From the NCBI GenBank assembly GCA_021796135.1, contig JAJYOQ010000197.1, positions 1 to 7,406 on the forward strand: 7,406 nt of DNA, given 5' to 3'. Positions 1,261 through 4,602 of the stretch are shown here, piece by piece (positions within the stretch are counted from its first letter, which is position 1; each line of letters begins with the position of its first letter). Origin of the DNA: Bacteroidota bacterium (GTDB lineage Bacteria > Bacteroidota > Ignavibacteria > Ignavibacteriales > Ignavibacteriaceae). The notes below the pieces were generated by a model. That model worked only from the letters and a program-made list of their open reading frames with translations, made no database searches and was not told the origin of the DNA. Position numbers and translations under genes: made by a program.

Positions 1261-1560
1261 GTGTCGTTATATAGATCAAAAATTCATCCGCCGCGAATTG
1301 TCTCTTTGTTTTTCCCCATTGTCACCTTTGCTCTGGAAAGCAAAGACAAAATAATGGTTAATGTTATTTGGCTTCAAAAATATAATCACTCCCTTTCCGA
1401 TCAAGGTGTTCTAGTTCACGAATTACTTCATTACACCATTGGAGAATTAAAGCGTAGAGGATTTAGCCTTAATAGCGGAAGCGAAGAAGCCTATACCTAT
1501 TTTTTGGAGAGTGTCTATAAAAATGCTTTAGAAAGATTAAATAAAAGAACTAGAAAATAA
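1261..1560 (+). CDS. Small HExxH putative zinc metalloprotease, possibly frameshifted at its start
   Basis: This is a 99-residue frame from a GTG. Its hallmark is HELLH at residues 53-57 inside VLVHELLHYTIGEL, a helix with the HExxH zinc-binding and catalytic motif, preceded by a strand-like stretch (IMVNVIWLQKY, residues 31-41). A downstream acidic helix, GSEEAYTYFLESVY (about 73-86), could supply the third, glutamate ligand as in minimal gluzincin-type folds. The N-terminus (HPPRIVSLFFPIVTFALE) looks like the interior of a strand-rich domain. The GTG has no Shine-Dalgarno, while a good one precedes ATG 1239 in another frame, so the gene may be broken at its 5' end. The next gene begins four bases after its stop, suggesting a two-gene unit. 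Phage and plasmid modules often carry small HExxH proteins; the substrate is unknown. Confidence 0.6.
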   Translation: MSLYRSKIHPPRIVSLFFPIVTFALESKDKIMVNVIWLQKYNHSLSDQGVLVHELLHYTIGELKRRGFSLNSGSEEAYTYFLESVYKNALERLNKRTRK

Positions 1561-2768: not shown

Positions 2769-3800
2769 TTGATAAAAAAACAGACTGTCGGCAAGATCAT
2801 TCTTGCCAGAGTGCTCGAGATGACACTCGGCAAGTACCTTATCTACATCGAGAGGGTAACACATGAAGCACCGAAGGCGTTACACGCACAAGATATTCAT
2901 ACAAGGAGACCTGTATACGGAAATATCACGATACAACATGGCAAACTCTGTTTCCGGGTTTCAGATAAACGCTTGCTTAATATATACTCAATACATTATA
3001 TTACAACGGATAAGATTGTGTGCTCACTAAAATGGATCAATACCAGGAATACATTTGGGCTTCACATTATGAAAAGTCTTCTTCATTACCAGCGCCGCTT
3101 TTGGTTGACCGGCAAGAAGGTGCATATGCAGCCTTTGACGATTAAACAATTTTTGTCACTGTATCCATTGCAGTATCTTGATCAGAGCCGTCTTTCCCGC
3201 TTAGCGCCAAAACTGTTTGTGCTTACCCCCGCAAATGAGGTTATCAATCTTAAGAACCTCTTTCTTTCGCCAAAGCGAGCTTACGCGTACCGCATCAAAG
3301 AATTAATTCACAGCAATGAACACTCCTTGAAAGATAATGACCTCCAAATCCTTTTAGCTCAGGAAGGAATCCACGTATCACTCAGAACGATCTGTAACTG
3401 CCGAAAGCTTCTGAACATTCCTAACTACAAGGAGCGGGCTGCGCACTATTACGGTAAGGACATCACCTTCAGTAATTATATGAAATTGTCCGAAAAGAAA
3501 TTTAGCATGATTCCCGCAGAGCCTGGTGTTTATGAACTCAGCATTTCTGAAAAACTCGACTATGCAAGAAACAAAAGCAATGTCATTTACATTGGAAGCT
3601 CCCGGGAACTTCGAAAGCGCATCGCCAGTTATTCGGGAAACGGAGTGAAAAACAAACAACTCAGTCAGTTTCTGAAGAAGCAGGATATTTTTGTGCGCTT
3701 CTGCCGGGCAGAACAATACAGAACACTTGAAAAAGAGCTAATGAGAAACTTTAAAAATAATTACGGTGAACTACCAAAATGCAACAGCGTAGGAGGATAA
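2769..3800 (+). CDS. Fusion of a sigma-54 (RpoN) C-terminal-like region with a GIY-YIG nuclease
   Basis: The protein has 343 residues. Residues about 85-225 follow the layout of the RpoN C-terminal half: LKWINTRNTFGLHIMKSLL then QRRFWLTG (matching the core-binding helices before the DNA-binding domain), PLTIKQFLSLYP (HTH region), and SLKDNDLQILLAQEGIHVS leading to a degenerate RpoN box, SLRTICNCRK (204-213, against ARRTVAKYRE), then LLNIPNYKER. Residues 248-343 form a GIY-YIG domain: GVY 253-255, YIG 274-276, an arginine in RKRIASY (R284), a glutamate in LEKEL (E321) and N339 in CNS. All the expected catalytic positions are kept, so nuclease activity is likely. The sigma-54 part would bind DNA, possibly -24-like sites. 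No AAA+ contact region I of true RpoN is visible. The start is uncertain: TTG 2769 has no ribosome site, and the first ATG is 2820. GC is higher than in the neighbours, which suggests transfer. Confidence 0.8.
   Translation: MIKKQTVGKIILARVLEMTLGKYLIYIERVTHEAPKALHAQDIHTRRPVYGNITIQHGKLCFRVSDKRLLNIYSIHYITTDKIVCSLKWINTRNTFGLHIMKSLLHYQRRFWLTGKKVHMQPLTIKQFLSLYPLQYLDQSRLSRLAPKLFVLTPANEVINLKNLFLSPKRAYAYRIKELIHSNEHSLKDNDLQILLAQEGIHVSLRTICNCRKLLNIPNYKERAAHYYGKDITFSNYMKLSEKKFSMIPAEPGVYELSISEKLDYARNKSNVIYIGSSRELRKRIASYSGNGVKNKQLSQFLKKQDIFVRFCRAEQYRTLEKELMRNFKNNYGELPKCNSVGG
2788..2834 (+). repeat. Nested inverted and direct repeats at the start of the fusion gene
   Basis: GGCAAGA (2790-2796) and TCTTGCC (2801-2807) form a perfect seven-base hairpin with loop TCAT. 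GAGTG (2809-2813) pairs with CACTC (2824-2828). The word TCGGCAAG occurs at 2788-2795 and again at 2827-2834, bracketing both. The block lies within the first 22 codons if TTG 2769 is the start, or upstream of and across ATG 2820 if that is the start. It could be an operator, an mRNA fold that limits translation, or chance within coding sequence. Confidence 0.4.
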
Positions 3801-3806
3801 ATAATG
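3791..3806 (+). promoter_or_regulatory. Strong Shine-Dalgarno AGGAGG for the small ORF
   Basis: AGGAGG at 3791-3796 overlaps the last codons of the fusion gene and stands seven bases before ATG 3804. It is a perfect ribosome site and indicates that the small downstream ORF is, or was, translationally coupled to the nuclease gene. Confidence 0.6.
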
Positions 3807-3944
3807 GAAACTCACAGCACAATCGTTGAAGAACTTATGCCGGAATTCAATCCGGCAAGAATATTTTTTGCAGAAGAGAGAGAGAGAGAGAGTGTATTGT
3901 CTGGTGAAGCAGCGCGAGTTATTAACGATGAGGGGAGAAGATAA
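3804..3944 (+). CDS. 46-residue hypothetical protein with an (AG)9 tract
   Basis: ATG 3804 to TAA 3942-3944 encodes 46 residues starting METHSTIVEELMPEFNPARI. It then has a glutamate/arginine run (EERERE) written by an (AG)9 tract and ends VINDEGRR. It has an ideal ribosome site (AGGAGG) and its stop overlaps the next ATG as TAATG, both signs of real translation. It is compositionally like the fusion gene. Against this, a hairpin with a T-run lies inside it at 3838-3869, where a terminator for the fusion gene would be expected. No family is recognised. It may be an accessory of the nuclease or the first gene of a unit whose second gene is broken. Confidence 0.4.
   Translation: METHSTIVEELMPEFNPARIFFAEERERESVLSGEAARVINDEGRR
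3838..3869 (+). terminator. Hairpin followed by a T-run, terminator-like
   Basis: TGCCGGA (3838-3844) pairs perfectly with TCCGGCA (3851-3857) across the loop ATTCAA, followed by AGAATA and six T (3864-3869). The stem is GC-rich. The six-base gap before the T-run is longer than ideal for an intrinsic terminator. Its position 38 bases after the fusion-gene stop suits a terminator for that gene, but it lies inside the small ORF 3804-3944, so it could instead attenuate it. Confidence 0.45.
3875..3892 (+). repeat. (AG)9 dinucleotide tract
   Basis: Nine consecutive AG units lie inside the 46-residue ORF. Slippage of one unit would change the reading frame. A gain of one AG moves translation into the frame that stays open to 4602 and includes the response regulator, while a loss of one AG gives a stop soon after (TGA at 3905). 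Confidence 0.7.
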
Positions 3945-4093
3945 TGAGCCATATAGCGAAACTTATGCTTTCCTGAGTCTTTGCTCTGGTGATTGTCCCG
4001 CTGGGGTTAGTGAGTTTTATTATCTATCACGGGGGAAAACAGATTCTTACCACCTTCGATACAACTGCCTTCCGTCTCCCATCTCCTTTGTAA
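3944..4093 (+). pseudogene. Truncated membrane-protein N-terminus with an in-frame TGA
   Basis: ATG 3944 overlaps the preceding stop (TAATG). The frame reads MSHIAKLMLS, a TGA at 3974-3976, then VFALVIVPLGLVSFIIYHGG and KQILTTFDTTAFRLPSPL to TAA 4091-4093. Together it looks like the beginning of a membrane sensor such as a histidine kinase or MCP: a short positive cytoplasmic start, one transmembrane helix and the beginning of an outer domain. The TGA and the absence of any continuation make it a remnant. TGA serves as a normal stop for other genes here (for example at 1730 and 6662), so recoding is not needed to explain it. GC is 45-48% here and falls to 30% in the row after 4080, so the truncation coincides with a composition edge. 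Confidence 0.4.
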
Positions 4094-4194
4094 TCCATAG
4101 ACTACAAAAGTTTAAATGTTTTGCCAATTGTTTTCCACATTATGATTGTCTAAACTTTGTTCGAATTGCAAACAGTTTATGCTCAAATATTGAT

Positions 4195-4209
4195 AAGGAA
4201 AAGACATTG
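4195..4209 (+). promoter_or_regulatory. Ribosome binding site deciding the TTG start of the response regulator
   Basis: AAGGAA at 4195-4200 lies six bases before TTG 4207, exactly where the receiver domain should begin (next codons KAKQLLIVDDS). This supports a 131-residue protein over the much longer open frame that extends back to 3826. Confidence 0.6.
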
Positions 4210-4602
4210 AAGGCAAAACAACTTTTGATCGTGGACGACTCAGAAATTATTCAACAACGGTTGAGCGATCAGCTTTCGGATATTCAGGGTATAAAGATAT
4301 TGAATAATATAGGCAGTATCAGTGATGCTATAAGCGCATTTAATAAATATCATCCTGACATTGTTATACTCGATATTCAATTAGCGGACGGACAGGGTTT
4401 TGAAGTGCTGGATGTAATCAAAAAGAAAAGCCCTAAAACAATAGTTATTATGTTCACTAATTACGCACAATCTGCATTCAGGAAGCGGAGTCTTGAACAT
4501 AGAGCTGATTTTTTTATCGATAAATCCAACGGGTATATTACTATTTACGATTTTGTAAGGTGGTTCTCGCGTGATCGTTCAGCAGAAAGGGTTACTCTCT
4601 AA
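4207..4602 (+). CDS. Single-domain response regulator (CheY-like receiver)
   Basis: With the TTG start at 4207 the protein has 131 residues and is almost entirely a receiver domain. The acidic pair D10-D11 (LLIVDDS), the phospho-acceptor D56 (DIVILDIQL), T84 (IMFTNY) and K106 (FFIDKS) are all present, so phosphorylation by a histidine kinase is expected. No DNA-binding or enzymatic output domain follows; the tail WFSRDRSAERVTL is short. In context it is the first gene of the chemosensory operon, 30 bases before cheW, and could be the output or a phosphate sink for the CheA that presumably lies downstream of the window. The frame stays open upstream to 3826, but that part is cysteine-rich, lacks structure and overlaps other plausible frames, so it is judged non-coding. 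TTG at 4207 is preferred because of the ribosome site. Confidence 0.85.
   Translation: MKAKQLLIVDDSEIIQQRLSDQLSDIQGIKILNNIGSISDAISAFNKYHPDIVILDIQLADGQGFEVLDVIKKKSPKTIVIMFTNYAQSAFRKRSLEHRADFFIDKSNGYITIYDFVRWFSRDRSAERVTL

Follow-up and report, generated by a model that had tools for sequence, protein, structure and literature searches.

Which DNA might be recognized by a protein that joins a sigma-54-like DNA-binding region to a GIY-YIG nuclease, and what might it do there? The question was raised by one open reading frame in a Bacteroidota contig, of which a stretch of 7,406 nucleotides (the window) was analysed. The most likely reading, to which we give a probability of roughly 0.6, is that the frame is a homing-type nuclease gene that uses -24/-12-like recognition.

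A sigma-54-like part and a GIY-YIG part in one protein

The open reading frame is real, and the following features were placed in it.

2769–3800, + strand: sigma-54 DNA-binding domain/GIY-YIG nuclease gene; TTG start, alternative ATG at 2820
3021–3437, + strand: sigma-54 DNA-binding part, residues 85–223, with helix-turn-helix (HTH) and RpoN box (from profile and fold)
3378–3407, + strand: degenerate RpoN box, residues 204–213
3480–3797, + strand: GIY-YIG catalytic domain, residues 238–343

A sequence-only reading of this DNA had proposed that an RpoN C-terminal region is fused here to a GIY-YIG domain, and this architecture was confirmed by profile, by fold and by a conserved family. The Pfam profile PF04552 (sigma-54 DNA-binding domain) matched residues 88–223 with 38.3 bits against a curated cut-off of 22.8 bits; a significant sigma-54 match and an RpoN-like fold, on which that proposal hung, were both obtained. 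PF01541 (GIY-YIG) matched residues 269–330 with 20.4 bits, just under its curated cut-off of 22.6, which was reached by three of ten relatives. The AlphaFold2 model had a pLDDT of 86.5 and a pTM of 0.61, the latter meaning that the relative placement of the two parts is unreliable. Residues 1–222 of the model matched the sigma-54 fold, including the HTH and the RpoN box; the likeness therefore extends further towards the N-terminus than the region 85–225 first claimed, which itself stood. The protein nevertheless differs from RpoN in being truncated, divergent and nuclease-bearing, and it lies far under the RpoN equivalog score (TIGR02395, 41.5 bits against the 277.35 required).

Residues 238–343 of the model matched the UvrC GIY-YIG domain, and Pfam detected no other UvrC domain. 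The GIY-YIG fold is thus common to this protein, the N-terminal nuclease of UvrC and T4 EndoII, but the DNA-binding part is different. The catalytic set of GIY-YIG enzymes consists of Y, Y, R, E and N. All five residues named by the sequence-only reading (Y255, Y274, R284, E321 and N339) were invariant in 31 and in 12 aligned rows, as were two arginines of the predicted degenerate RpoN box, R206, which had been pointed out, and R212.

A conserved family in bacterial genomes

It was found that 174 proteins match the window protein at E ≤ 0.001, with 40–75% identity among the 120 matches listed, the copy itself aside. After the profile had been extended with plasmid relatives, 281 matches were obtained at E ≤ 1e-10 among 7,995 candidates scored. 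Among the 120 of these 281 that were listed was a branch of ∼410 aa, with the names Burkholderia multivorans, Rhodoferax, Sulfuriferula and Methylomicrobium; in public records some of its members are called RNA polymerase sigma-54 factor and some GIY-YIG nuclease family protein, and the former name looks like misannotation. Homologues of this length from Beta- and Gammaproteobacteria included P0174, P0201 and P0250; P0250 and P0174, used as queries, found no additional plasmids.

A profile scan of genome contigs confirmed 32 loci among 70 stretches, and their insertion sites, in PAS modules, were compared; a single-sequence scan had given 16 pattern-matching stretches, of which none was confirmed. 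Nearly all loci lie on contigs of metagenome-assembled genomes (MAGs), and their host names may therefore be incorrect. None of 83 candidate stretches from viral contigs was confirmed as a relative and none was found among 50,697 phage records, which leaves a phage origin unsupported. The profile detected none at E ≤ 1e-20 in 196 genomes of the order of genome G088, a search run without a positive control. RpoN-like reading frames of 473–545 aa occurred alongside the nuclease in about 11 of 31 genomes. In Chloroflexota, five profile matches besides genome G010 (including G655 and G687) covered the sigma-54 part only; the three whose full length was read proved to be short, RpoN-like and free of a GIY-YIG domain. 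L118, L119 and L120, RpoN-like proteins of ∼370 aa, are shorter than usual sigma-54 and have no GIY-YIG domain; their hosts are small Chloroflexota genomes of 1.3–1.6 Mb, and the word TTGCAGAAGAAG was absent from the loci read. The sigma-54 match of an Arcobacter plasmid homologue, L035, was weak. A quick tree, with a long branch for L035 and seven weak forks, showed 12 changes of group among 21 labelled rows; only the pairing of L002 with L006 is drawn from it.

The dN/dS of the nuclease gene was 0.16–0.42 in 11 pairs, and the protein is therefore maintained. Several copies were broken: L014, L015, L016, L018 and L024 were in pieces, L022 was a fragment, and in L003, L004 and L005 the first ∼50 residues lay in a different frame; assembly error, or decay of the sort seen in homing genes, may have caused this. 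Such frames, together with the decayed flanks of the window copy, are what a dead fusion or an artefact, made by the chance joining of an RpoN fragment to a GIY-YIG gene, would leave; the numbers of homologues, a dN/dS well under 1 and the confident model already refute that explanation, which we hold to be vanishingly improbable. The family is conserved, and its architecture and the DNA mark described below are firm.

The nuclease gene lies inside split PAS sensor genes

At the 32 genome loci the nuclease gene sits inside a PAS module. The upstream sensor reading frame ended in a half-PAS (FKFVPEGLLVFTDKLNLFKKNKAF...EIRISKK) in all 28 assessable loci, 27 of them scored by patterns picked after viewing the sequences and L017 added separately; L013, L021, L025 and L030 start too close to a contig end to be assessed, and L024 has a divergent form. 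The downstream frame begins within ∼32 nt of the nuclease stop or overlaps the nuclease gene, opens with the other half-PAS (EELILQFDxARIFFAEEEEEEEARIVVSLKDITERK) and continues into PAS, GAF, histidine kinase or receiver domains. When ten flanking proteins were scanned, all five upstream proteins had PAS without HisKA or HATPase, and all five downstream proteins had both kinase domains. The upstream half-PAS showed a dN/dS of 0.08–0.29 (8 pairs). Comparison of the uninterrupted copy L068 with L029 placed the insertion point immediately 5′ of the Met codon that starts the downstream half; in our view, this point and the glutamate run of the downstream half probably lie in PAS loops. Genome G105 and plasmids L033 and L034 carry free-standing nuclease genes; the gene that follows bears the mark, at a distance of ∼1 kb.

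The loci read sit among signalling genes, and the free-standing copies lie upstream of a sensor gene. With the retained sigma-54 fold, this would suit a regulator that binds DNA to control signalling genes; its sigma-54 part would sit on intragenic -24/-12-like sites, and its GIY-YIG part would be regulatory or inactive. The invariance of the five catalytic residues in both alignments argues against this, and split PAS genes and empty alleles would be unexpected, so we consider a regulator distinctly unlikely.

Unit borders and uninterrupted copies

In an all-against-all comparison, most locus pairs were homologous at the nucleotide level between about -245/-290 and about +130/+145 relative to the gene and not beyond, and the borders of this unit were the PAS linker DITERKxAEEALRKSEE. 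Upstream sensor DNA was common to about -650/-690 in L002, L015, L016 and L018; homology extended to -305 to -390 in L010, L012, L017 and L023, and it continued through the right flank in L019/L020 (99.6%) and L029/L030 (84.7%). L003 and L005 had a common left flank and diverged at +139, with later pieces shifted by ∼1.6 kb, and L026 and L027 had a common right flank and diverged at -283/-280. L002 and L006, sisters in the tree, were 90.9% identical from -262 into the gene and 85.6% at the gene end, with unrelated flanks. The same unit was thus found in unrelated surroundings, as co-conversion would give, in MAGs whose host names (Marinimicrobia for L002, Chloroflexus for L006) are unverified; MAG contamination may account for the likeness.

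The linker DNA GACATCACCGAGCGCAAG was considered as the target and was dropped, because exact ACCGAGCGCAAG was not specific to the unit: it was present at 7 of 10 left borders and 4 of 11 right borders, and also at 11 of 32 other DITERK sites. Over L001–L035, exact ACCGAGCGCAAG was read in 22 of 53 DITERK sites. Identical G+C-rich codons (GAYATCACCGAGCGCAAG) often encoded DITERK, even where the locus had 34–43% G+C; shared recombination or codon inertia could make these codons so uniform.

Joined flanks of L005, used as a query, found 31 proteins, in three of which (P0123, P0125 and P0130) both halves were uninterrupted. Uninterrupted copies of this PAS were also found in 2 of the 31 nuclease-bearing genomes, namely G009 (L066, which is P0125, and L067) and G014 (L068); a second query covered 15 of the 31. 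Both genomes also carry an occupied copy. Occupied copies (28 assessable loci) and uninterrupted ones (L066, L067, L068, P0123 and P0130) therefore both exist, as copies of one PAS type rather than proven alleles of one locus. In L069 (G008) the nuclease gene is deleted, with its last codons and the PAS split retained, and this copy is a deletion derivative. Genome G088 has a split PAS with a decayed mark and without the nuclease; this sensor, L071 (G088:C1:3346483-3349710, on a 3.47 Mb contig), either bears the trace of an insertion since lost or was split independently.

A conserved -24/-12-like DNA mark

Downstream of the gene, within the half-PAS, a mark of the form A/T-R-G-A/C-A-N6-TTGCA-(GAA)n was found. 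Of the 29 assessable loci, 28 had it 53–94 nt beyond the point where the nuclease match ends, a count that includes L009 (one GAA) and L010 (TTGAA); the miss was L022, and L018, L031 and L032 are cut by contig ends. What is conserved is mainly the DNA. At the mark in 24 loci, arginine was written AGA in 17/17 cases (host expectation 0.19), alanine GCA in 23/23 (0.23) and GAA was used in 24/24 for each of the first two glutamates of the run (0.63). Nearby S, L and V columns used 4–6 codons in the same test, and DITERK columns were biased, not frozen (for example CGC 14/19 and GAG 15/18). The test omitted L020 (a near-copy of L019), L009, the window, the plasmids, and L012, L022 and L024, whose downstream frame was not picked up by the script; outside the test, L012 had AGA and GCA, and L024 had CGC for arginine and GCA for alanine. 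The occupied locus L010, within the test, had AGT and GAA where AGA and GCA were expected, and TTGAA for TTGCA. Over 25 loci of 33–63% G+C, 179 of 180 run codons were GAA. Slippage could give uniform GAA, but it leaves the freezing of AGA and GCA unexplained.

The exact word TTGCA(GAA)5 occurred 38 times in 27 of the 31 nuclease-bearing genomes, and its reverse did not occur. The 37 sites read (all but G022:C118) lay within sensor reading frames. Besides the 26 sites of the common half-PAS kind there were 13 distinct ones, 12 in other PAS positions (GQPVSxIFAEEE, TLSGIRxAEEE and ARRIIIAEEE) and one in the divergent half-PAS of L024. At these 13 sites the residue at the -24 codon was R, S or G, with G in the middle of the codon in 13/13; of 16 spacers tried, TGGCACG fitted best at the sigma-54 spacer 4 (3.77 of 7), the next-best fit being 2.92 at spacer 8, and GG was present in five. 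L085 reads TTGGCACGTTCTTTGCA, a perfect -24/-12 sequence by the consensus. The 26 half-PAS sites, the kind found in the window, fitted TGGCACG better at spacer 8 (4.62 of 7) than at spacer 4 (2.88); their -24 half was degenerate, with G at position 3 in 26/26 and GG in six. It had been suggested from the sequence that the nuclease is guided to -24/-12-like promoter elements. The part that holds is that such a mark accompanies the nuclease; the marks are intragenic and, in the half-PAS, degenerate at -24; they are -24/-12-like by sequence, and a promoter role is putative.

The run varied from 1–2 to 13 GAA between sites and differed in close relatives (8 in L019 and 9 in L020; 5 in L026 and 11 in L027). 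Four exact marks lie in PAS genes of the genome G014; three of these are clustered within 4 kb of one contig, each in a different PAS position.

Association of the mark with the nuclease across genomes

In 296 Bacteroidota genomes, from the phylum of G009, the exact mark was found in G009 and G105 only, and the nuclease at E ≤ 1e-25 was found in the same two. Because G009 was the centre of the sample, G105 is the single independent case; one row of the profile used, P0100, appears to come from G105. There the gene is free-standing, and the PAS kinase gene that follows it carries the mark, 1.0 kb downstream. In 395 Chloroflexi genomes the full nuclease was restricted to G010, around which the sample was built; besides G010, G619 had the exact word. 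The G619 match was rejected: it precedes a dehydrogenase gene rather than lying in a PAS gene, and it has no G at -24. Thus no exact TTGCA(GAA)5 in a PAS gene was detected in the 688 nuclease-free genomes of the 691 sampled, by a word that overlooks shorter or variant marks. On Diaphorobacter and Sulfuricystis plasmids, whose homologues are 28% identical to the window protein, a PAS gene with TGGCATCCGCCTTGCG(GAA)n comes next; near the Arcobacter plasmid homologue no mark was detected within the 30.8 kb read.

The mark could instead be an ordinary feature of PAS genes, an acidic loop subject to slippage and unrelated to a nuclease that merely favours signalling loci. GAA runs do arise through slippage, 26 of the 39 sites are homologous half-PAS and hence not independent, and G105 stands alone in the association test. 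Slippage does not freeze AGA and GCA, however, and the exact mark was not seen in PAS genes of the nuclease-free genomes sampled, the G619 match being outside PAS; we therefore think this explanation very unlikely.

The nuclease might also serve the host by cutting PAS genes at the mark, with repair that shuffles PAS modules or alters the glutamate run in frame and so tunes the sensor. Such a diversifying role would agree with the variable run length, with marks in several PAS positions per genome (four exact ones in G014), with unit borders at PAS linkers and with purifying selection on the upstream half-PAS. Trinucleotide tracts also slip without a nuclease, though, and the very sparse occurrence (2 of 296 and 1 of 395 genomes) is that of selfish genes; we regard this role as rather unlikely.

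The window copy

Downstream of the nuclease gene, the window contains the following features.

3804–3944, + strand: 46-codon short reading frame, remnant of the downstream half-PAS (METHSTIVEELMPEFNPARIFFAEERERE...), starting 3 nt after the nuclease stop
3857–3872, + strand: -24/-12-like DNA mark AAGAATATTTTTTGCA, 57 nt past the nuclease match end
3873–3891, + strand: purine tract after the mark, in which a single GAA followed by a GA repeat replaces (GAA)n
3944–4100, + strand: frameshifted remnant in translation (MSHIAKLMLS / FALVIVPLGLVSFIIYHGG...), to be compared with the gene after the L009 unit

The remnant in the short frame (3804–3890) matched the half of L003 at E 1.5e-4, and L009 carries the same GA variant of the tract. 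The DITERK end of the downstream half was missing, and no upstream half-PAS was detectable in the window. Since the upstream half-PAS, the clean GAA tract and the DITERK end are lost, and the mark and the frame are kept, the window copy is a unit in partial decay whose nuclease frame is still open. The 3944–4100 remnant could be a membrane-spanning N-terminus, and beyond the membrane-like remnants lies a chemosensory cluster (receiver, CheW, CheR-TPR, CheW). A 258-aa frame at 3826–4602 (+) is a receiver-domain gene (residues 134–235); its first ∼120 residues seem to be half-PAS and membrane remnants translated in the wrong frame, and its true start is probably near 4200. A 99-aa frame at 1261–1560 (+) matched phrog_1365, a phage family of unknown function (E 4.2e-7); its match to an IrrE-like peptidase family (E 0.17) was under any cut-off.

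Proposed homing mechanism

The sequence-only reading had also offered an RpoN remnant used as a DNA-binder in homing or transposition, and the pattern of insertion in PAS sensor genes lends indirect support to the homing side of that idea. In sigma-54, the HTH reads the -12 element and the C-terminal RpoN box reads the -24 element. In the mechanism we propose, the sigma-54-derived part would bind a -24/-12-like site, RG-N10-GC[AG] with a GAA tract after it, in PAS-coding DNA of sensor genes. The GIY-YIG part, beyond the RpoN box, would then be on the -24 side and cut upstream of the mark, the side on which the gene is inserted; the distance, measured on L068, is ∼50 bp. I-TevI binds and cuts at a distance, and this position and offset would fit a nuclease that, like I-TevI, binds at the mark and cuts upstream. 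Repair from a gene-bearing copy would insert the gene together with the flanking PAS halves, by co-conversion ending at the PAS linkers, where homology to the target stops. In occupied copies the mark survives downstream of the gene, and the insert interrupts the presumed upstream cut site. Stop and start codons that lie close together or overlap would keep the split sensor expressed. Co-conversion of flanks during homing is described in passages of PMC2988022.

Several observations count against simple homing. Marks persist in uninserted PAS genes of nuclease-bearing genomes, which a free cutter would attack, and nuclease-free copies retain a mark that should serve the nuclease alone. Such persistence goes beyond simple homing and would be explained by non-autonomous copies moved in trans or by host use of the tract. 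The preference of the 26 half-PAS sites for spacer 8 over 4, the mark exceptions L024 and L010, the free-standing genes (G105, L033 and L034), the markless L035 and the broken copies also speak against it. A broader, tentative possibility is a mobile PAS-cassette system of bacterial chromosomes, in which autonomous units (PAS half, nuclease, PAS half) and non-autonomous, nuclease-free units would share the -24/-12-(GAA)n mark and be moved by the nuclease, acting in trans, between sensor genes at PAS linkers. It would drive the domain shuffling and splitting of signalling proteins, and a transcription-factor fold, its original DNA specificity intact, would have become a homing guide.

Comparison with known systems

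The GIY-YIG homing endonucleases of phage T4 (I-TevI and SegA-G) likewise join a GIY-YIG domain to a separate DNA-binding part, and their genes lie in or beside the presumed target. In the family described here, by contrast, the DNA-binding part descends from sigma-54 and precedes the GIY-YIG domain in the chain, the hosts are bacterial chromosomes and plasmids, and the predicted target is PAS sensor DNA. Overlap of T4 endonuclease genes with the upstream reading frame, as here, is described in parts of PMC2988022, as are MobE in nrdA of phage Aeh1 and MobA in T4 gene 60, where an endonuclease gene splits its host gene into separate coding regions. The likeness to MobE and MobA is this position within a split gene; those are HNH enzymes in phages, whereas the present family interrupts one PAS module, and does so in a variety of sensors across several bacterial groups. 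With mobile introns and inteins the family has in common a nuclease inside a host gene and empty alleles, but no splicing part was seen in the layout of the reading frames, which are three close or overlapping frames with their own stops and starts. The literature covered, in which subscription papers and preprints were thinly represented, gave no description of the family, no account of GIY-YIG with sigma-54 and PAS, and none joining GIY-YIG, a PAS domain and homing.

We know of no earlier sigma-54-derived DNA reader that guides a nuclease. The homing reading is specifically testable, as it predicts the target and the empty copies in advance. If it is true, this would be the first known sigma-54-derived nuclease guide and a chromosomal counterpart of the phage genes in pieces, and it would provide a concrete mechanism for the reshuffling of bacterial sensor proteins.
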